Shown: positions 35,710-48,265 of the stretch, piece by piece
How positions within the stretch are numbered: the first letter of the stretch is position 1
How the letters are laid out: the number at the start of each line of letters is the position of its first letter
IMG/VR virus record: IMGVR_UViG_3300028569_002827
Coordinates: 1 to 48,921 of that record
DNA from: a virus
Reading direction: 5' to 3' (one strand)
DNA: 48,921 nucleotides
Position numbers and translations under genes: made by a program
Notes under the pieces: generated by a model
The model's database searches: none
The model's input: only the letters and a program-made list of their open reading frames with translations
Told to the model about the DNA's origin: nothing

Positions 35710-36273
35710 ATGGATCGTGGAGCAAGTTCAGAGTTCATCGCCGAGATCCTCAAATCCAGCAACCAGCCTGTCTATTTGGTTGAGGCCTGGTTTGACGACG
35801 GCACGATCCGCATGACGGACGCTTGGATCAACGTGCTGTGGAGCACCAACACCTACACGGCCAACGGTCACTTTCTCGGGTTCTCCGGTCTGTCAGAGAC
35901 CAGTGACATGAGCATCCCCAATGTCACGGTTCAAGTCTCGGCTGTGGATCAGACTTGGATTTCAATTGCGCTGTCCAAGCCCTATATCGACCGGCGCATT
36001 GCCATCTACAAGGCTTTTCTGGATTACCGCCTGGCCATCATCAGCAACCCATTGCTGGTGTTCGATGGTCGGATTGACAGCATGGAAATCTCCGACGACC
36101 CCAACAACGGCACCTGCACGATCGCAGTCACTGCCAGCTCGCAATGGGTGGATTTCCAACGCACGCCGGGCAGGCACACCAATGACCCGGAAGAGCAGAT
36201 CTGGTTTCCGGGCGACCGGGGGTTTCAGTTCGTCACCAACATCAACCGTGAAATCAAGTGGGGATCCCTGTGA
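35710..36273 (+). CDS. Tail-tip hub-like protein (DUF2163-like pattern)
   Basis: 187 residues. The N-terminus LVEAWFDDGTIRMTDAWINVLW and the C-terminus FQRTPGRHTNDPEEQIWFPGDRGFQFV, then INREIKWGS, resemble small hub-associated phage proteins of the DUF2163/DUF1833 type. I am not certain of the family. It lies between the distal tail protein and the GNAT gene, where lambda-like phages place their baseplate hub proteins. Its stop overlaps the next start (GTGA). Confidence 0.65.
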   Translation: MDRGASSEFIAEILKSSNQPVYLVEAWFDDGTIRMTDAWINVLWSTNTYTANGHFLGFSGLSETSDMSIPNVTVQVSAVDQTWISIALSKPYIDRRIAIYKAFLDYRLAIISNPLLVFDGRIDSMEISDDPNNGTCTIAVTASSQWVDFQRTPGRHTNDPEEQIWFPGDRGFQFVTNINREIKWGSL

Positions 36274-36752
36274 AGAGCGGACGATCTTTCTACACATATG
36301 CGCGTATTCCGATTGCGACGGCGACCCAAGAACTGCAAGCCCTGGCCGAACGTGAGTACGAAGAAGTCGGCCAAAAGGATCTCGAACGCCTGAACATCGA
36401 CTGGGCTCGGTACGGCGAACTCGATGCCGCCGGGAAACTCGCCACCTTCATCGCCAAACGTGATGGCGTGATCGTGGGCTACGCCGCATTCATCGTGCAG
36501 ACCCACATCCATTACCAGGATGCGCTGGTCGCCGCCAACAGCGCTGTTTATGCCGTACCCGAGGTACGTGCTGGGCGTGTCGTTCTGAAGCTGCTGCGCT
36601 TTGCCGAGCTGGGCCTCAAAGCCCAGGGCGTGCAAAAGATTTATTACCACGTTAAACAGACCAAAGACTTCGGTCGCCTGCTCGGACACCTGGGCTACCA
36701 GGACGTCGAGCGCATGTACGCCAAGGTAGTTCAGGACAGGGAAGACGCGTAA
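36270..36752 (+). CDS. GNAT-fold acetyltransferase encoded in the tail-tip operon
   Basis: 160 residues from GTG 36270, which overlaps the previous TGA and has GGGGA at suitable spacing; a GTG 12 bases upstream is possible. GNAT signatures: KRDGVIVGYAAFIVQ (about 67-81), AVYAVPEVRAGRVVLKLLRFAELGLKAQGVQKIYYHV (about 92-128) covering motif A with a modified R/QxxGxG/A loop, and LLGHLGYQDVERMYAKVV at the C-terminus. Its position, where many siphophages carry a peptidase, suggests acetylation of a tail protein or host target. The loop RAGRVV lacks the second glycine, so activity is uncertain. Confidence 0.8.
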   Translation: MKSGRSFYTYARIPIATATQELQALAEREYEEVGQKDLERLNIDWARYGELDAAGKLATFIAKRDGVIVGYAAFIVQTHIHYQDALVAANSAVYAVPEVRAGRVVLKLLRFAELGLKAQGVQKIYYHVKQTKDFGRLLGHLGYQDVERMYAKVVQDREDA

Positions 36753-39721
36753 TGGCAGGCATCGTCATTGGAGCCATCGTTGGATCGGTGGTGTCCGAGG
36801 CCGTGGGTATCGTGGTGGCCGATGCCGTACTTGGCATGGTCATTGAGTCGGGCATCACGGCTGTAGCGGCTGACGTTCTTGGCGCATCGCTTGCCACTGC
36901 CAGTTTCATCGGCGGTGCGACCGGTTTGGTCGCCGGTGGTGTTGCCAACTTGGCGGTGCAGTCACTGATCGGCTCGAACTCGCCATCAAGCGCGCAGTCA
37001 GCGCTGTCTTCGGCCCAGGCGCAAGGCATCCTGATCAACTCTCAGAGCAATGTCGACCCCATTCCAGTGATTTACGGTCGCCGCCGGGTGGGTGGCACAC
37101 GGGTGTTCATTGAGGTCTCAGGCAGCAGCAACGAATACCTGCATCTGGTGCTGGTGCTCTCAGAAGGCCCAGTGACCGCGATCGATAACGTTTATCTGGA
37201 CGATGTGCTTTCTACGGACGCCAAGTTCACCGGGTTGCTCACTGTCACCAAGCATCTAGGTACACCCGGTGAAGCAGCCGATGCAGCACTAACCGCCGAT
37301 GTACCCAAGTGGACCAGCGCCTGCAAACTTTCCAACTGCGCCTACCTGTACGTCAAGCTCAAATACGACCGCAACGCATTCTCCGGCCTGCCCACAATCA
37401 CAGCCGACGTGCGTGGCAGAACTTTGTTCGACCCGCGAGACGGACAGACCCGGTATTCCAATAATCCAGCACTCGTCCTGCGGGACTACCTGAGCAACAC
37501 GATCTACGGGCGAGGCATCGCCAGCAGCGCGATCGATGACACGAGCATTTCGGCAGCCGCGAACGCCTGCGATGTGAGGATCACCGCTCCAAGTTTCTCT
37601 GACATTTTTACGGTCAGCACCACAACCGAAGCGTTGACTTTCTCCCAGCCGATACCTATCGACACAGGGGATGGCGTCAAGGTGAGCAGTACCGCCACCG
37701 TGCCCAGCCCGTTGGTGGCAGGGACAACTTATTACGCGATCAAGGCAACTGACACCAGCTACCAACTCGCCACCACGATGGCCAATGCCGTTGCTGGGAC
37801 CGCGATCGATCTGACATCGGCAGGCTCTGGCCAGCACACGCTCGCCCAGGTGAACTACGCGGCTTACGCCTGCGACGGCACGATCGACACCAACCAGACG
37901 GCGTATGACAACGTGCGCGCACTGCTTACCGCGTGCCGGGGCATGCTGGTGTTTAGCGGCGGCAAGTACCGGTTGGTGCTTGACGTTGCCACTACAGCCT
38001 CGAGCTTTGGGTTCACCGAGAGCAACATTACCGGCTCCTGGGTCATCAGCCAGGCCGGTAAACGCGCCAAGTACAACCGGGTCACCGCTGGTTTTTATAA
38101 CCCAGCCAAGAAGTGGCAGCCCGATCTGGCCATGGTCGAGTCCACAGCTTTGCGTGCCACCGATAACGGTCTGATTTTGGAAGCCAAGATCGACCTGCCG
38201 TTCACAGCCAACAGCTACCGGGCGCAGAACATCGGTCAGTTGACGCTGAACCAAAGCCGCTACGGCTTGGTCGTGAAGTTCTCCGCTTTTCAGGAAGGCT
38301 TGCGATGCGAGGTGGGGGATGTGGTGCCCATCACACATACAACGCCGGGTTGGTCCGCCAAGTTGTTCCGGATCATGCAGATCGAGATCAAGGACAACGA
38401 CGAGGTCTATGTCGTGGCCCGTGAATACAGCGCCAGTATTTACACGCAAGCGGTCCTGTCGCCTGCCGCCGTCATCGCTCAGTCCAATTTGCCAGACCCG
38501 TTCAGCGTGCCTGCCGTGTTGGGTCTCACCCTGGCCTCCGGAACATCTGAATTACTGCGACTGGCTGATGGCTCTGTCATTTCCCGCATCCGCGTGGGCT
38601 GGACCGCACCTACCGAGGTCTACGCTCAGAAGGGGCAGGTCGAAGTTCAGACCCAAGCTACGACCGATCTGGGATGGTCGCCGGTGGACATTGTTGCTGC
38701 CGAGTTGGGTGTGGCTTGGGTGTCACCTGTGCAAGACGGAGCCAGCTACAACGTGCGCATTCGGGCGATCAACTCGATCGGCGTACGCGGAGCATGGAGC
38801 CAGGGGACCGTTCAGGTGGTGGGTAAAACTGCACCACCGTCCGATGTCCCGTGGCTGCGCCTGGACGGCGAGCGCCTGACTTGGGGGCCAGTCTCAGATA
38901 TCGATCTTGCCGGTTACCGCGTGCGTTGGCAGCCGGGTGGCAGCCGTTCCTGGTCGGACGCGCTGGAATTGCACACCGGCCTGCTGGCTGTCTCCCCATG
39001 GGATTTGGTGACCATTCCTTATGGTGCAGGTCAGATCTTGATCAAAGCGTTCGATACCACCGGCAATGAGAGCCTGAACGTCAGGGCACTAGCCTGCAAC
39101 TTAGGTGATGCGCCGGTGGAGAACGTGTTTGCAAGCTACCCGCTCAACACGACGCCGGTGGTGGCACCCGATTCATCGCGCATGTGGAGCAACGATTCTG
39201 CTCAACTCTGGACCAACACTACGGCGGTGTTTCTGGTACCTCAGTACCAGGCTATTTTCTGGACCGGCAGCGTCACATTTACCGAGAGCGGCAGTCTCAC
39301 GATCGCGGCCACCGTCAGTGGGTATGCCTGGAAGATCACTTGGAAGAAGTCATCGGACGTGGCCTATGTGCCATTCCCGGGTCGGGCTTGGGCTGACGCA
39401 GGAACGACCTACCAGTTCCGCATCGATGTAGATCAGAGCAATTTGCAAGGCCTGATTGGCTCGGTGGTTGCGCAAATCGATGTGCCCGATAAAACGATTC
39501 GCCTACCCGATGTGGTGATTGCCTCGGGCGGTTCGCGCTTGTCGATTGGCACCGGCTGGCGAAACGTGGTGATTGTGAGTCTCACTTTGCATTCAGACGG
39601 TGGCACTGCCACCACGGCCCGCGTGGTCGATAAATCAACTTCGGGTCCCCTGATCCAGTGTTTCAACGCCAGTGGCGCTGCAACCGCTGGGACGGTGGAC
39701 GCCTTCGTTCAAGGATATTGA
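36752..39721 (+). CDS. Tail tip / central fibre protein (gpJ-like)
   Basis: 989 residues. A hydrophobic Ala/Gly/Val-rich N-terminus (about 1-85) is followed by DPIPVIYGRRRVGGTRVFIEVSGSSNEYLHLVLVLSEGPV, the conserved start of siphophage tip proteins. A tail-tip core with YNRVTAGFYNPAKKWQPD and a fibronectin-like pair (about 590-800) lead to a C-terminal lectin-like beta region. It is shorter than lambda gpJ and probably acts as the hub carrying separate fibre proteins encoded next. The ATG overlaps the GNAT stop (TAATG). Confidence 0.87.
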   Translation: MAGIVIGAIVGSVVSEAVGIVVADAVLGMVIESGITAVAADVLGASLATASFIGGATGLVAGGVANLAVQSLIGSNSPSSAQSALSSAQAQGILINSQSNVDPIPVIYGRRRVGGTRVFIEVSGSSNEYLHLVLVLSEGPVTAIDNVYLDDVLSTDAKFTGLLTVTKHLGTPGEAADAALTADVPKWTSACKLSNCAYLYVKLKYDRNAFSGLPTITADVRGRTLFDPRDGQTRYSNNPALVLRDYLSNTIYGRGIASSAIDDTSISAAANACDVRITAPSFSDIFTVSTTTEALTFSQPIPIDTGDGVKVSSTATVPSPLVAGTTYYAIKATDTSYQLATTMANAVAGTAIDLTSAGSGQHTLAQVNYAAYACDGTIDTNQTAYDNVRALLTACRGMLVFSGGKYRLVLDVATTASSFGFTESNITGSWVISQAGKRAKYNRVTAGFYNPAKKWQPDLAMVESTALRATDNGLILEAKIDLPFTANSYRAQNIGQLTLNQSRYGLVVKFSAFQEGLRCEVGDVVPITHTTPGWSAKLFRIMQIEIKDNDEVYVVAREYSASIYTQAVLSPAAVIAQSNLPDPFSVPAVLGLTLASGTSELLRLADGSVISRIRVGWTAPTEVYAQKGQVEVQTQATTDLGWSPVDIVAAELGVAWVSPVQDGASYNVRIRAINSIGVRGAWSQGTVQVVGKTAPPSDVPWLRLDGERLTWGPVSDIDLAGYRVRWQPGGSRSWSDALELHTGLLAVSPWDLVTIPYGAGQILIKAFDTTGNESLNVRALACNLGDAPVENVFASYPLNTTPVVAPDSSRMWSNDSAQLWTNTTAVFLVPQYQAIFWTGSVTFTESGSLTIAATVSGYAWKITWKKSSDVAYVPFPGRAWADAGTTYQFRIDVDQSNLQGLIGSVVAQIDVPDKTIRLPDVVIASGGSRLSIGTGWRNVVIVSLTLHSDGGTATTARVVDKSTSGPLIQCFNASGAATAGTVDAFVQGY

Positions 39722-41952: not shown

Positions 41953-42570
41953 ATGGCAGCTATTCCATCCAAGGCCAGTTTCACTGGCACTACCGTAACC
42001 CAAGGGCAGTTCAAGACTGCCCTTGATTCTTTAAACGACTACCTTACGGGTTTGCTGGGCTCAGACGGTACAGCAGCGACAGCGCGAACGGCATTGGGCG
42101 TGATCAATGCGACAGCGCCGACGTATGCGCAGGTGATTGCCGCACTCGGTTTCACGCCTCCGCAGCCCGGTGGCACCGGCGCATCAGGGACCTGGCCTAT
42201 CAGCGTAAGCGGCAATGCGGCCACCGCATCCAAACTCAATTCAACGGCGGGCGCTGGCACGTACAACTGGACGGGGCAGTCCGGTCAGCCGACCTGGGTT
42301 TGGGGTGGTAACGACGGAACCAATTTCTATGTCTACAACCCGTCTAACTTCTCGGTGAACTACGCGGGTAGCGCAGGCACTGTGCCCTGGACTGGCGTGA
42401 GTGGACGCCCCACTGCGGTTGCAGATTTTCAGTACAGCGGAAACGTTGGGGATGGCATCGGAGGTGCGTTAGCTGTCAACGCACTGGTTCAAGTCGCGAC
42501 CGATAACACGGTGCGCATTTATCGAAACACGAACTGCAATTGCAATTGCGATTGTGCTTGCTGCTGCTAA
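41953..42570 (+). CDS. Tail fibre protein ending in a seven-cysteine tail (putative maturase substrate)
   Basis: 205 residues. The body is a fibre-type sequence: a helical N-terminal segment (TQGQFKTALDSLNDYLTGLLG), TARTALGVIN, then Gly/Ser/Asn/Trp-rich strands with repeated NW-G/PTWVWGG patterns. There is no cysteine in residues 1-194. The last twelve residues are NCNCNCDCACCC (Cys at 195, 197, 199, 201, 203, 204, 205). The three genes that follow encode an Ig-like protein, a 2OG-oxygenase-like protein and a radical SAM/SPASM enzyme. I infer that this tail is enzymatically crosslinked or otherwise modified. Metal binding or disulfides without enzyme action are alternatives. Confidence 0.8.
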   Translation: MAAIPSKASFTGTTVTQGQFKTALDSLNDYLTGLLGSDGTAATARTALGVINATAPTYAQVIAALGFTPPQPGGTGASGTWPISVSGNAATASKLNSTAGAGTYNWTGQSGQPTWVWGGNDGTNFYVYNPSNFSVNYAGSAGTVPWTGVSGRPTAVADFQYSGNVGDGIGGALAVNALVQVATDNTVRIYRNTNCNCNCDCACCC

Positions 42571-42581
42571 GGACCCACAAC

Positions 42582-43373
42582 ATGAAAATCATTGCAGTGC
42601 GAAACGCAAAAATTCATCCCCAGTTTCAACCCACCGTTCACCTTGGTTTCGACCCTGTCACGAGCGACCTGAGCGTGTCTCTGTATCTGCCATCGCTTGC
42701 GACAGAGGAGGCGGCCACGGGTGTCGCTGGCTTGACGTTGATTGAGTCGGTGGTTGTCAACATCGGCGATCTGCGAAAGAGATACGACTGGTGCGATCAC
42801 CAGACCTACTTCGTGGCTGTTCATGCCGGGGCGTTTCTTCCAGTCTTTGCGCTGTACCCGGAGACCCTTCCCAATCGCGAGACAGCTGTTGACTACGCCC
42901 AGCGCCTCAAGAGAAATCTGCTGGTGGGCATCAACGTGCCATTTGCAAACGCCAATGACGATGAGTTGTTCATCACGGTGAACCTCAACGCGCAGGCAAC
43001 AGACGCCAATATTCAGGTCGATGAGAACTGCACGTTGGTTTGGAGCGAAGCAGCTAGCAGCGGCGCTGTTCGCACCATGGCGTTTCCGTTCATTCATGTG
43101 CAAGCGCCAGCCAGTATTCCGGTGGGCGGCATTGCCTCGATCGAATTGCGCATAGAGGATGTGGCAGGCCAACTGCTTGACCGAGAGGCTGTTGTCTACC
43201 TGGAAGCTGTGAGCGGACTGGTGCCTTTTGCACGCGTGCGTGCGAACCATGGCTTGGCTACTGTTCCCGTCTCGGCAGCAGGCATGTCTGCTGGTGATGA
43301 AATCCGGGTGAAGTTTGGATGGAAATATTTCCCAGGCGCAGAGGATGCGCGGATTGCGGTGGTGGCCGCATGA
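42582..43373 (+). CDS. Unknown protein with C-terminal Ig-like domain, in the fibre-maturation operon
   Basis: 263 residues from ATG 42582, with AAGGA 10-14 bases upstream. The N-terminal 165 residues are a mixed domain with YDWCDHQTYFVAVHAGAFLPVFALYPE and are not recognised. The C-terminal ~90 residues (IHVQAPASIPVGGIASIELRIEDVAGQLLDREAVVYLEAVSGLVP to the end) match the rhythm of a bacterial Ig-like fold. Only two cysteines are present. It lies between the Cys-tailed fibre and the two putative enzymes and is coupled to the second by an ATGA overlap. It may be a second fibre subunit, a substrate carrier or a chaperone. Confidence 0.6.
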   Translation: MKIIAVRNAKIHPQFQPTVHLGFDPVTSDLSVSLYLPSLATEEAATGVAGLTLIESVVVNIGDLRKRYDWCDHQTYFVAVHAGAFLPVFALYPETLPNRETAVDYAQRLKRNLLVGINVPFANANDDELFITVNLNAQATDANIQVDENCTLVWSEAASSGAVRTMAFPFIHVQAPASIPVGGIASIELRIEDVAGQLLDREAVVYLEAVSGLVPFARVRANHGLATVPVSAAGMSAGDEIRVKFGWKYFPGAEDARIAVVAA

Positions 43374-43927
43374 TGCAACTGCTTTTTCCTACACCTGTCG
43401 TTCGCACCCAGCTTGGGCTGACGAACGAAGAGCGTCAAGTCCTCAAAGAAAAGACGCTCGCAGTCTATGGCGATCTCAACCCCGATAGAAAACCTTGGAG
43501 CCGCTCGACCCGTGAGTCACTCGAATCCATGGATCCTGCATTTGCAGACCTGTTCGCACGAATCAAAACCGTGACCAGCGAGGCTTTCGGTATTGGCATC
43601 GCATCCATCACCGGCAGGGAAGTGGTTCAGTTCAAAGGTGACTTCGTACCGCCCCATGTGGAGTCAGCCCATCTGTCTGCCATTTACTGGATTGATGGGG
43701 ACGCCCACCCTGACCCTGAGAGAGGCGAGCATGACGGCGCACTGGTTTTGCAAAGCCCAATCGGCCCCTTTGGCAGCAAGGCGCTGCCCGGTGAAAAGCG
43801 CGTGTCCATGATCAACCCTCAGCCGGATTTGCTGCTGGTGTTTCCGAGCCACTTGCTTCATTTCGGGCATGTTTACCTGGGCGAGCGTCCCAGCGTTGAA
43901 ATCCACATTGAGATGGAGGTGCTCTGA
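43370..43927 (+). CDS. 2OG-Fe(II) oxygenase-like protein (PF13759-like)
   Basis: 185 residues from ATG 43370, overlapping the preceding stop. The pattern fits the putative 2OG-Fe(II) oxygenase family: LLFPTPVVRTQLGL at the N-terminus, PPHVESAHLSAIYWIDGD (His96, Glu98), then PQPDLLLVFPSHLLHFGHVYLGERPSVEIHIEM (His161/164/167, Arg173). His96-x-Glu98 and one of the later histidines could bind iron, and Arg173 the 2-oxoglutarate. Family members hydroxylate amino acid side chains. It may act on the fibre tail or the neighbouring protein. It is coupled to the radical SAM gene by TGATG. Confidence 0.75.
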   Translation: MMQLLFPTPVVRTQLGLTNEERQVLKEKTLAVYGDLNPDRKPWSRSTRESLESMDPAFADLFARIKTVTSEAFGIGIASITGREVVQFKGDFVPPHVESAHLSAIYWIDGDAHPDPERGEHDGALVLQSPIGPFGSKALPGEKRVSMINPQPDLLLVFPSHLLHFGHVYLGERPSVEIHIEMEVL

Positions 43928-45294
43928 TGGCCCAGTTCAAGATCAAGCTCATTGCGCCGGACAACACAGAGCGCGAACTGCTGTACGACAACCAGACCAG
44001 CAGCCTGACTTGGGGAGCGGATGGGTTTGGCTCCCTGGTACTGGAAGTCAATCCCAAAACGTTTCAGGACGCCACGGTCGTGAGTACCACCCAGCCAGGC
44101 CGAAAAGGCCTAATCAAAACCCTCAAAATCAGCCTCGGTTTGTCCTGCAACTACGAGTGCAACTACTGCAGCCAGCGCTTTGTGCCCCACGCTGAAAGCA
44201 CCAACCCCGAGGATGTAGAGAATTTTCTGCAGCAATTGACCACCAGCCTAAGTCAGGCTCCCGAACGGATTGAATTTTGGGGCGGTGAACCACTGGTCTA
44301 CATCAAGACCTTAAAGCCCTTGGCTGAGCGCCTGCGAGTGCTCTACCCGGATGCTGAGTTCCTGATCATCACCAACGGCTCATTGCTCAGTCTTGAGACC
44401 AACGAGTGGCTGGACCGCATAGGCTTCGTCGTCGGGCTCTCCCACGATGGGCCTGGCTACCACGCACGCGGTGCAGACCCGCTGGACGAACCAGAGAAGC
44501 GTGCAGCCATCATGGATCTGTACGCGCGCCTCCATCCGCAGGGGCGCATCAGCATCAACGCGATGATCAGCAATCAAAACCCGAGCAGGGCAGCAGTACA
44601 GATTTGGCTGCAAGAACGCTTTGGTGCCGATGTTCAGATTGGTGAAGGTGCTTTTATTGACCCCTACGATGAAGGTGGGCTGGCTGCCACCTTCAAGACC
44701 ACCGCTGAGCACGCACAGTTTCGCAGGCAAGGGTTTGGCGAGATCCGCACTGGCCTTGCCAGTCGCTTTGACCTCACCAACCAAAAGATCCAAGACTTCA
44801 TCGATTCCATTCGCTACCAGCGCCCAGCCTCTGCGCTTGGGCAAAAGTGCGGCATGGACCGCAGCAACAACCTAGCTGTGGATCTCAAAGGCAATGTCGT
44901 CACGTGCCAAAACGTGAGCGCCGCTGCCACGGCTCCGAATGGCCAGAGCCATCTGATCGGCCAGCTTTCAGATCTGTCCGCCGTGCGCATGAAAAGCGCC
45001 ACGCATTGGAGCGAGCGCCAAGGCTGCTCGTCTTGCCCGGTGCTTCAAATGTGCAAGGGCTCGTGCATGTTCTTGGAAGGGCCGCTTTGGGATGCTGGGT
45101 GCGACGCCGCCTATTCGGACAACTTGGTGTTCTTTGCGGCGGCCATTGAGTTCCTCACGGGGTGCATGCCGGTCTTTATCGATGGCGATTTACCGCCAGA
45201 GCGCAAGGACATCTTTGGCCTTGCAAAGAGCACCGTGGAGTCGCCTCCAACAAGGCGAGTGATTCCGATCCTTGCCGCGCAGCAAACAGCCTAA
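43927..45294 (+). CDS. Radical SAM/SPASM peptide-maturase-like enzyme
   Basis: 455 residues. Residues 1-65 form a short strand-rich leader domain. The radical SAM cluster motif is C74-x3-C78-x2-C81 (SCNYECNYCSQ), followed by GGEP at 119-122 for SAM binding. The SPASM domain is complete: C308-x13-G-x4-C327, gap, C367-x2-C370-x5-C376-x3-C380, gap, C392, enough for two auxiliary Fe-S clusters. This arrangement is found in enzymes that crosslink or oxidise ribosomal peptides (sactipeptide, ranthipeptide and related maturases) and in anaerobic sulfatase-maturing enzymes. It is the last gene before the operon terminator, co-transcribed with the Cys-tailed fibre. Confidence 0.92.
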   Translation: MAQFKIKLIAPDNTERELLYDNQTSSLTWGADGFGSLVLEVNPKTFQDATVVSTTQPGRKGLIKTLKISLGLSCNYECNYCSQRFVPHAESTNPEDVENFLQQLTTSLSQAPERIEFWGGEPLVYIKTLKPLAERLRVLYPDAEFLIITNGSLLSLETNEWLDRIGFVVGLSHDGPGYHARGADPLDEPEKRAAIMDLYARLHPQGRISINAMISNQNPSRAAVQIWLQERFGADVQIGEGAFIDPYDEGGLAATFKTTAEHAQFRRQGFGEIRTGLASRFDLTNQKIQDFIDSIRYQRPASALGQKCGMDRSNNLAVDLKGNVVTCQNVSAAATAPNGQSHLIGQLSDLSAVRMKSATHWSERQGCSSCPVLQMCKGSCMFLEGPLWDAGCDAAYSDNLVFFAAAIEFLTGCMPVFIDGDLPPERKDIFGLAKSTVESPPTRRVIPILAAQQTA

Positions 45295-45321: not shown

Positions 45322-45370
45322 GCCCGCCTGGAGCACCTTTTGTGTGTGCCAGCGCGGGCTTTTTCTTTTT
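45322..45370 (+). terminator. Terminator closing the tail/fibre operon
   Basis: GCCCGC (45322-45327) pairs with GCGGGC (45354-45359), with an inner TGG/CCA and a long loop, then TTTTTCTTTTT (45360-45370). It places the radical SAM gene inside the late structural operon and the lysis genes downstream of a terminator. Confidence 0.75.
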
Positions 45371-46681: not shown

Positions 46682-48265
46682 TCAGTTCAGCAGTACTGAA
46701 TTTAGTTTTCTCAGGCTTGGTAAAACCATCTTGATGGTGAATGCATCAGGCCGTGGTTGCCCTTTTCTTGTTGAACAAGTCATCAACTTTACGAGCATAT
46801 CTTGTGGGATCTTGTCGACGCCATGAAGCGTGCCGATCAGCCCTCCTACGATGCATGCATTGGTGTCGGTGTCTCCGCCCCGTTCCAGAGTTTGTGTCAA
46901 CGCATCTTCGTAGCTATCTTTGCATCGAAGGTGATAGAAGGCGAAAGTAAAAGCATGTTTGACAAAGCCTGCTAGTGGGTAGGCTGGTGCAGGTTTATTG
47001 GTGATGATGCTTTCCATCCACTCAGTCACTTCTTCGCTGCTTTCCCGGACATACGTCATCGCGACCGCGAAGGCGCCTTTGGCGTCACCAGGGTGACGAA
47101 TTAGATGTCGGATCGCCAGAACATATGCCGCAGTAGCGTGCTGACAAGTTTCGTTAGGGTGCGTCAGACATGCATCTTTTCTGGCAACCTGAATTGCATC
47201 TTCTTGGCTTAGAGCTGCAGAAATAATCCCTAGCGGAGTGGCTCTCATCAAACTGCCGTTTGCTTTAGATTCGCTGTTGAAAGTGGTAGCTTGTTTTTTT
47301 ACCTTTACCTCAATTGCATCCGTGCTTTCATCGTAGGGGTACTCCATCAGTGCACTTGAAGTAGCCATTCCGATGTCAAATGGTTTGGAACGCTCCCAAC
47401 TGCAATAGGCATTGGCCACTTGGTTCACCAAGTAGCTTCCATTTGACTGGGCAAGGCTGTTCAAAAGGGCGACAGTCATTTCACCGTCATCTGTGAACTG
47501 CCCAGGAGCTAGATTGAAAACTCCGCCTCCAGGCATGTCGAGCGCCTTTTGCACCTCCTCTTTCGTTGGCTTACGACCCATGAACTCCAGCACCCCACCG
47601 GCTGCGTCGCCAATCAGTGCGCCGAAAACACTACCGTACATTGCGCGTTCAGCGCTAGTTAACTCATCAGTCTCCATCATTTTTTCAGGAAGGTTACCAA
47701 GAAGGGTTTTCAGTTCTTTAGATTGGCGCACCAGTTGCGCTGATGGGTAGGTGGTACATGCGCCATTACTACGGTTAACAATTTCAGCAATACCCTGAGT
47801 GGTCTCCAAGACCATTTTCAGCTTGTCATAGGTATTTTCGCCCAAAAGGATGTTCCAGGCCTTGACCAGGCTTGTCTTGTTGTTGTCGATCAGCCCTTGA
47901 CCTGCGTGCAGCCAGAACTGTTCTTTTGCTGCTCCTTCGGCCAGTTCTCTTTCTACTCGGTAATTTTCAAATGAACTTTCTTCACTGCATCGCTTAATTT
48001 GTTCAGCATTAAGGACGTATGAACACTCTTTCCCCTCCGGGCCTTCAATTGCGCGATACGTGGCAGTCAATTTAACGGGGTCAACCTCAATACATTGCCA
48101 GCACCCCCCACCCTCGGCAGTTACCATGTTGTAAGACTTACCAATGCAGGCCCAGAGTTCAAAGACACCCCAGCCGCCACAGACCCACTCAGGCTCCAGG
48201 CACATCGAAATATTGCCGTTTTCCACCCGCAAAGCGCCTGCCTTCAGTGTTTTTCTTCTACGCAT
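46682..48265 (-). CDS. ADP-ribosylglycohydrolase-family protein with a novel N-terminal half
   Basis: 527 residues. Residues about 206-527 are the ADP-ribosylglycohydrolase fold: MYGSVFGALIGDAAGGVLEF, then FTDDGEMTVALLNSLA (the metal-binding TDD), ANGSLMRATPLGI, and the C-terminal ERGGDTDTNACIVGGLIGTLHG. All the acidic metal ligands appear present. The first ~200 residues, with MVTAEGGGCWQCIEVDP and several cysteines, are not recognised. Such enzymes remove ADP-ribose from proteins, DNA or small molecules. It lies on the opposite strand after the lysis genes, a common position for added cargo. It could defend the host or the phage against ADP-ribosylating effectors, or be a host gene. Confidence 0.85.
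   Translation of the reverse strand: MRRRKTLKAGALRVENGNISMCLEPEWVCGGWGVFELWACIGKSYNMVTAEGGGCWQCIEVDPVKLTATYRAIEGPEGKECSYVLNAEQIKRCSEESSFENYRVERELAEGAAKEQFWLHAGQGLIDNNKTSLVKAWNILLGENTYDKLKMVLETTQGIAEIVNRSNGACTTYPSAQLVRQSKELKTLLGNLPEKMMETDELTSAERAMYGSVFGALIGDAAGGVLEFMGRKPTKEEVQKALDMPGGGVFNLAPGQFTDDGEMTVALLNSLAQSNGSYLVNQVANAYCSWERSKPFDIGMATSSALMEYPYDESTDAIEVKVKKQATTFNSESKANGSLMRATPLGIISAALSQEDAIQVARKDACLTHPNETCQHATAAYVLAIRHLIRHPGDAKGAFAVAMTYVRESSEEVTEWMESIITNKPAPAYPLAGFVKHAFTFAFYHLRCKDSYEDALTQTLERGGDTDTNACIVGGLIGTLHGVDKIPQDMLVKLMTCSTRKGQPRPDAFTIKMVLPSLRKLNSVLLN

Follow-up and report, generated by a model that had tools for sequence, protein, structure and literature searches.

Asn-Cys tails of phage tail-fibre-like proteins are encoded beside a radical SAM/SPASM enzyme that probably modifies them

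We describe a gene cassette of phages in which a tail-fibre-like protein ending in a run of alternating Asn and Cys residues is encoded upstream of a radical S-adenosylmethionine (SAM) enzyme with a SPASM domain. The cassette was analysed in a virus record of 48,921 bases, IMG/VR IMGVR_UViG_3300028569_002827, which we call the window; the system is widespread among phages and the window is one case of it. Tail and enzyme genes are linked in both directions of search, and it is likely that the enzyme modifies the Asn-Cys units at the fibre tip, most likely by forming thioethers.

Results

The enzyme leads to the tail

A scan of viral contigs for the enzyme confirmed 422 stretches, of which the best 80 were used, and genome contigs gave 69 loci, mostly from Proteobacteria by record title, with some bins named after other phyla. 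Excluding the window's own copy, the forward set comprised 151 enzyme loci (numbered with the prefix L), 120 of them with at least 4 kb upstream. We applied a strict filter to the open reading frames (ORFs), requiring at least three alternating Cys, at least three [N/D]C units and a distance of no more than 16 residues from the stop codon or from the start of a Hint domain behind the run. A tail of this kind was found upstream of the enzyme in 104 of the 120 loci, and our own reading added nine more, with shorter or odder tails (L051, L055, L058, L105, L127, L129, L132 and L145) or with a tail just outside the flank (L026), giving 113 in total. The filter matched none of 16,193 opposite-strand ORFs and none of 70,090 shuffled ORFs, and its one match among enzyme-strand ORFs downstream of the enzyme was a Hint-bearing Asn-Cys protein in L152. 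A loose pattern used at first as the minus-strand control had matched in 40 of the 120 loci; we judged these matches an artefact, because the complement of AAYTGY repeats can be read as Asn/Ser-Cys/Tyr repeats, and an opposite-strand control therefore requires the strict filter, which replaced it. The 120 loci form 26 enzyme clusters at 70% identity and hence are not 120 independent cases. A further 31 loci with less than 4 kb upstream were left uncounted, 11 of which showed a tail under a looser filter.

Of the annotated phage records, those of Achromobacter phages JWF (two) and 2-1 were the only ones to match at least 80% of the enzyme, at 47.9% identity. Two more divergent enzyme queries returned no further annotated phage record at this coverage: coverage of these queries was only 26-38% for radical SAM genes from Campylobacter and Thermus phages, and one Enterococcus phage and one faecal phage record reached 70-76% coverage at 23-24% identity. 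In Limnohabitans sp. 15K and 2KL-1, enzymes of 95-96% identity are encoded far from the contig ends, a position which suggests that these copies are prophages. In L145 (Polynucleobacter necessarius) the enzyme gene matches over its full length, with a best single frame of 274 bits, next to the tail NCNCDRNCGC; by their sequences, the two may be decaying together.

The tail leads to the enzyme

In the reverse direction, the DNA pattern for NCNC[N/D]C[N/D]C matched at least 120 stretches in viral contigs and gave 117 new loci (L153-L269). Where the pattern was no more than 20 residues from the C-terminal end of a stop-to-stop ORF with 60 residues or more, and 3 kb of downstream sequence was present, a same-strand radical SAM gene followed in 60 of 60 loci among the matches listed. 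The nearest tail-enzyme distance ranged from 1 to 3,094 bases (1-32 bases in eight loci) and the best enzyme profile scores from 61 to 720 bits, the 12 lowest (61-244 bits) belonging to distant or broken-up radical SAM genes, maybe of another subfamily. Forty-five of these 60 tails were absent from the forward set. Clustered at 70% identity, the enzymes of the 60 loci form 29 groups, of which 19 had not turned up in the forward direction. Where the downstream sequence was shorter than 3 kb, the enzyme was present in 12 of 27 reverse loci, and in two of three of the Hint class. Matches in other contexts with 3 kb downstream had an enzyme in six of 16 loci, and all six carry Asn-Cys proteins, followed by a Hint domain (L224), an S74 domain (L188, L233 and L256) or an unassigned domain (L165), or encoded by a short ORF cut by the contig end (L177). 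The ten without enzyme are ORFs of 25-210 residues, with C-terminal runs in ORFs of 25-36 residues in L203, L210 and L243 and internal runs in the rest, and look spurious (low-complexity or wrong-frame) in our judgement. Other-context loci with less downstream DNA had an enzyme in one of seven cases, and four loci had no ORF match.

Chance does not explain the pairing of tail and enzyme, given the outcome of the forward and reverse searches and of the shuffled control. The initial annotation had proposed a dedicated pairing of SPASM enzyme and Cys tail and had named, as cases that would count against it, enzymes lacking a Cys-tailed neighbour and tails lacking the enzyme. The proposal fares well on both: a tail lies upstream in 104-113 of 120 loci, seven of 120 enzymes (three of them fragments) have no tail in the available flank, and of 60 tails with 3 kb downstream none is without an enzyme. 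The genes have the arrangement typical of a ribosomally synthesized and post-translationally modified peptide (RiPP), with the gene for the modifying enzyme next to that of a precursor whose core motif is conserved.

A different arrangement was seen in L166 and L226 (also L172 and L267), where tails such as ACNCNCNCNCTRGIL lie near radical SAM ORFs with low scores of 50-247 bits, four of them in L166, three in L226 and one each in L172 and L267. This type is perhaps a separate multi-enzyme branch.

The tail is conserved as protein

Of 125 unique tails, 91 have Cys as the final residue. In those no longer than 60 residues, Cys is preceded by Asn in 542 of 790 instances (by Asp in 73, by Ala in 61), and the spacing from Cys to Cys is two in 532 of 670. 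The number of Cys per tail runs from 3 to 21 and varies even among close relatives of the window, whose tails read NCNCDCCC, NCNCNCDCCC and NCNCNCDCACCC. The 90 residues preceding the tail fall into 12 single-linkage clusters (of 131, 35, 16, 7, 5 and 3 members and six single ones), so the same tail is borne on different sequences; compared as whole bodies, the tailed proteins chain into nine clusters, one of which holds 173 of 203. Both codons are used for Cys (TGC 547, TGT 191) and for Asn (AAC 303, AAT 183) in 130 distinct tail DNAs, which indicates that the protein sequence is what is conserved. Three small tailed proteins stand in a row in L066, L071, L072 and L074, and the tailed protein of L240 (13487-13930, minus strand) has a tail also rich in CQxC-type repeats.

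Self-cleaving domains behind the run

Some members carry the run internally. In phage JWF the run NCNCDCNCNCS is followed directly by a Hint domain (PF05203, 47.5 bits against a cut-off of 32.1, from residue 308), the match starting at profile position 1 and spanning the first 37 profile positions; phage 2-1 reads alike. Hint-like domains were also seen in L224, L242, L250, L060 and L136-L139, those of L224, L242, L138, L060 and L250 with matches under the Pfam cut-offs and those of L136, L137 and L139 recognised solely from the motif. Six Hint rows on the enzyme tree require at least five changes of the Hint label. An S74 domain follows the run directly in L188, L233 and L256, which share one and the same ORF (in L233, PF13884 with 22.4 bits against a cut-off of 22, at residue 138). 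Hint and S74 chaperone domains are self-cleaving, and by analogy their self-removal would make the run C-terminal again, if these copies cut themselves as their relatives do. In L165 (4633-5631) and L171 (41-943, minus strand), the run precedes a domain of about 170-180 residues with no Pfam match, and the enzyme lies upstream instead.

The radical SAM/SPASM enzyme

The motifs first read in the window enzyme, C74xxxC78xxC81, GGEP and a seven-cysteine SPASM set (C308, C327, C367, C370, C376, C380 and C392), are all present. The seven follow the SPASM pattern, CX9-15GX4C - CX2CX5CX3C - C, as C308..G322..C327, C367..C370..C376..C380 and C392. In an alignment of 39 rows (the window included, the other rows hand-chosen for intact frames), every row has the three radical SAM cysteines and the seven of the SPASM set, as well as SHDGP and QKC. 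The enzyme scores above the cut-offs of TIGR04085 (SPASM, 35.2 bits against 27) and PF04055 (30.3 against 29.5) and belongs to phrog_1802 (4e-59), annotated in PHROGs merely as 'radical SAM domain-containing protein'. Its best NCBIfam score, to the PapB ranthipeptide maturase (NF047865), is 52.7 bits against a cut-off of 340; it also falls below the cut-offs of the maturases of QHNDH (TIGR03906, 41.5 against 453), anaerobic sulfatase (TIGR03942, 39.1 against 349.45) and SCIFF (TIGR03974, 25.7 against 425). Scores to HxsB (36.5 against 370) and HxsC (31.8 against 267.9) do not place it in the His-Xaa-Ser system, and its tails are Asn-Cys.

A structure predicted for the enzyme (predicted local distance difference test, pLDDT, 89.4) gave CteB as the best VIA match, with Z 23.7, a root-mean-square deviation of 4.2 Å over 359 aligned residues and an alignment that begins at residue 1 of the model. 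ChlB (21.5), anSME (20.2; 3.9 Å, 319 aligned) and TigE (18.1) came next, and SuiB (15.5), viperin-like enzymes (about 15) and EpeE (13.2) were lower. By sequence profile, the best solved relative was TigE (8vpo; 76.4 bits, 2e-20, mainly residues 60-219), then anSME (54.6 bits, 8e-14) and CteB (45.9 bits, 3e-11). CteB has a single auxiliary cluster with an open site able to bind a substrate cysteine, according to a review. The predicted CteB-like fold, together with such an open cluster site, favours thioether chemistry without proving it.

Proposed mechanism and alternatives

From the linkage described above we hold it highly probable that the enzyme modifies the Asn-Cys tail and, given that it does, quite likely that the modification is a thioether. 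The Asn-Cys run at the C-terminus would be the substrate region of a tail-fibre-like virion protein, ending at or near the C-terminus either because it is translated there or because a Hint or S74 domain behind it removes itself. The enzyme would bind a tail cysteine, probably at the open site of its auxiliary iron-sulfur cluster, abstract a hydrogen atom from one residue in an Asn-Cys unit and, most likely, form a thioether, proceeding iteratively along the run. The Ig-like protein described below would probably assist tip assembly or sit beside the tip, and the 2-oxoglutarate (2OG) oxygenase, where present, would probably hydroxylate the tip as well. The outcome would be a fibre tip that is rigid and resists reduction, which may be the part that meets the host surface. 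More tentatively, in phages of many Proteobacteria each Asn-Cys dipeptide might become a small ring, the Cys sulfur joined to the neighbouring Asn and the ring repeated along the tip, with self-cleaving domains recruited repeatedly in evolution. If this is true, it would to our knowledge be the first radical-SAM-matured virion protein, and we know of no precedent for the neighbour-bond geometry, which is unlike that of the N-x-x-C thioether. A thioether on the residue preceding each Cys had been suggested from the window; the type of bond is deduced, and one between adjacent residues would be unusual.

Several observations weigh against the proposed mechanism. Seven of the 120 enzyme loci have no tail in the available flank, and although those of L143, L144 and L150 are enzyme fragments, L037, L097, L133 and L135 have a nearly full-length enzyme (a short pattern present elsewhere in the records of L097, L133 and L143 was left out of the counts). 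The domain behind the run in L165 and L171 is neither Hint nor S74. The enzyme falls far under the NCBIfam cut-off of each peptide maturase among the 25 best families, a Pfam sequence search found no RiPP recognition element (RRE, PqqD-like), the domain that recognizes the peptide, and the gap between CteB and anSME is just 3.5 Z, with anSME and TigE outscoring CteB by sequence profile. A thioether between neighbouring residues would itself be unusual. The spacing of the known N-x-x-C bond is also poorly kept: in tails of up to 40 residues, Asn or Asp stands at position -1 of the first Cys in 101 of 116 but at -3 in just 24 of 116, and a later Cys that breaks the alternation has Asn or Asp at -3 in 0 of 126 cases and Asn at -1 in 79 of 126. 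With Asn constant at -1 and -3 not kept, the unit is the Asn-Cys dipeptide. The N-x-x-C cross-link geometry of NxxcA, which the alternation gives by itself and which is lost at irregular cysteines, was dropped as the preferred one.

The most serious alternative is that the tail is modified otherwise, by conversion of each Cys to formylglycine as in anaerobic sulfatase maturases (anSME), by epimerisation of alternate alpha-carbons or by some other change on Asn, which we regard as unlikely. It draws on the closeness of anSME in fold and its higher profile score than CteB, and on the fact that strict alternation would suit an iterative action on each second residue and that a dipeptide unit misfits the known N-x-x-C thioether spacing. 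anSME has eight such cysteines, and the set of seven found here fits the open cluster site of CteB better; the score to TIGR03942, far below its cut-off, also speaks against anSME chemistry. As regards epimerisation, EpeE is far less similar, and Cys, the most constant element of the tail, would be left unexplained. In favour of this alternative, anSME has a protein Cys or Ser as its target (PMC8326336).

A second alternative is a tail left unmodified and serving as a metal, iron-sulfur or disulfide tip, with the enzyme acting on another cassette protein. Metal-tipped phage spikes exist, Cys and Asn bind metals, an alternating strand would put all Cys on one side and a trimeric fibre would stack three Cys per layer. 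However, 11 of 187 loci have no called gene separating tail gene and enzyme, and a Cys number of 3-21, varying among close relatives, suits an iterative enzyme more than a fixed metal site, so that this explanation appears improbable. It is scarcely credible that the radical SAM gene is mere cargo, a moron without relation to the fibre gene that stands beside it by chance. Phages do carry radical SAM genes of unassigned use (Campylobacter phages CP220 and CPt10 have 11 and 12 of them; PMC2853527), but the two-way co-occurrence over 12 pre-tail clusters and 29 enzyme clusters refutes this reading as far as genomics can.

Other genes of the cassette

Gene order was compared across the 187 loci that contain both a tail and an enzyme; this set counts overlapping contigs as well as the window, and genes were called simply as the longest open frames. 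The commonest order, tail gene, Ig-like (immunoglobulin-like) gene, 2OG gene and enzyme, was found in 63; only the 2OG gene lay between tail and enzyme in 20, only the Ig-like gene in 14 and nothing in 11, with other orders in 79. The 2OG protein is therefore frequent but not obligatory. A second radical SAM gene (c7) lies between tail and enzyme in L113, L196 and L231.

The Ig-like protein (cluster c0, 133 members) was predicted by AlphaFold2 with a pLDDT of 91.8. Its C-terminal domain matches the Ig-like domains of GH2 enzymes (VIA Z 12.6), intimin and the phage Chi neck (10.9), and also resembles invasin Ig-like domains; these rows cover mainly residues 168-263 and barely probe the N-terminal part. 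Among predicted viral structures, the seven best matches are phage or unnamed proteins, none with an assigned function. The 2OG-Fe(II) oxygenase label given earlier to the following gene stands in part, with PF13759 at 21.3 bits, under the cut-off of 27, and phrog_81 (2OG-Fe(II) oxygenase) at 3e-11. In its cluster (c1, 133 members) two His are invariant in 24 of 24 representatives. A second 2OG type (c3) matches PF13640 with 25 bits against a cut-off of 27, and a protein of 61-77 residues (c2) had no Pfam match.

The window

The cassette genes of the window are listed in Table 1. In the tail-bearing protein the first Cys is residue 195, and direct reading confirmed that residues 1-194 are free of Cys and that the C-terminal end is NCNCNCDCACCC. 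The reported gene spacing is also as described, the Ig-like gene starting 11 bases after the tail gene and the next two genes in ATGA and TGATG overlaps. The name of fibre could be kept only in part: the protein had no family match in Pfam or PHROG, and only residues 86-154 (28-32% of its length) match annotated tail fibres, from two phages. A lambda-J-like gene (36752-39721; phrog_31, 1e-75) is located upstream of it. The terminator proposed behind the cassette is visible by eye as a GC-rich inverted repeat with a T-run, but was not listed by the terminator scan, whose 8-base loop limit it apparently exceeds.

Table 1. Features of the cassette in the window
Feature	Position	Strand	Remarks
Tail-fibre-like protein, putative substrate	41953..42570	+	205 aa; residues 86-154 resemble annotated tail-fibre proteins
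Codons of the C-terminal Asn-Cys tail NCNCNCDCACCC	42532..42567	+	residues 194-205
Conserved Ig-like (beta-sandwich) protein, probable structural partner	42582..43373	+	263 aa; cluster c0, AlphaFold2
2OG-Fe(II) oxygenase-like protein	43370..43927	+	185 aa; phrog_81, sub-cut-off PF13759, cluster c1
Radical SAM/SPASM enzyme, putative maturase of the tail	43927..45294	+	455 aa; phrog_1802, TIGR04085, invariant cysteines
Terminator-like inverted repeat and T-run behind the cassette	45322..45370	+	seen by eye; absent from the terminator scan list

From their translations, we take other genes of the window to encode a serine-recombinase-type integrase, a terminase, a portal, a capsid and a tape-measure protein. 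A GNAT acetyltransferase-like protein (36258-36752, plus strand; PF00583, 23.4 bits against a cut-off of 20.7) is encoded in the tail-tip block directly before the J-like gene. Behind the lysozyme gene, on the opposite strand, lies the gene for a 527-residue protein (46682-48265, minus strand) with a full ADP-ribosylglycohydrolase domain (PF03747, 202.5 bits), by its sequence likely a cargo or counter-defence gene.

Discussion

The conserved Ig-like gene, the self-cleaving domains behind the tail and the breadth of the family had escaped the initial annotation. Should the tail indeed be modified, phages would possess enzymes devoted to altering the chemistry of the structure in contact with the host, and host recognition would have a layer that gene sequences do not reveal. 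phrog_1802 would gain a testable substrate, and RiPP-like maturation would extend to a virion protein. A short Asn-Cys tail and one enzyme, encoded by adjacent genes in the smallest cassettes, could potentially serve as a compact tail-tag system. The cultivated Achromobacter phages JWF and 2-1 make the system directly testable, as do the Limnohabitans copies.

Among the papers listed by literature searches, we found no description of radical SAM modification of phage tail proteins, with subscription journals and bioRxiv largely outside the scope of these searches. Like the system described here, CteB and PapB (ranthipeptide/SCIFF) combine radical SAM and SPASM domains with a Cys-rich target encoded beside the enzyme; here, in contrast, the target is a phage structural protein, often of several hundred residues, its unit is Asn-Cys and no RRE was found by sequence. 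According to PMC8326336, NxxcA joins Cys to Asn, freyrasin carries a bond from Cys to Asp, and QhpD joins Cys to Asp or Glu in an enzyme subunit. NxxcA and NxxcB resemble the present enzyme in that Asn and Cys are targeted by a radical SAM enzyme, the bond of NxxcA being made to the Asn beta-carbon, but they form a single N-x-x-C bond, whereas here Asn adjoins Cys and the spacing is lost where the repeat breaks. As with QhpD, the thioethers would be made in a working protein rather than in a secreted peptide; the score to the QhpD family TIGR03906 is far lower here. We do not know of QhpD in phages. In the His-Xaa-Ser system (HxsA, HxsB, HxsC) the repeat lies in the target HxsA and is His-x-Ser instead of Asn-Cys. 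Such a short-repeat target is predicted to be matured by radical SAM enzymes (PMC9062424). The self-cleaving S74 chaperone domains of phage fibres and Hint domains (PF13884, PF05203) are those found behind the run in some members, though not in the window protein; in this system, unlike known cases, their role would be to expose an enzyme target. Maturation of Cys-rich targets by radical SAM enzymes is of a known kind. Within the scope of the listings, what is new is that the target is a virion protein, that its unit is Asn-Cys and that self-cleaving domains have been recruited.

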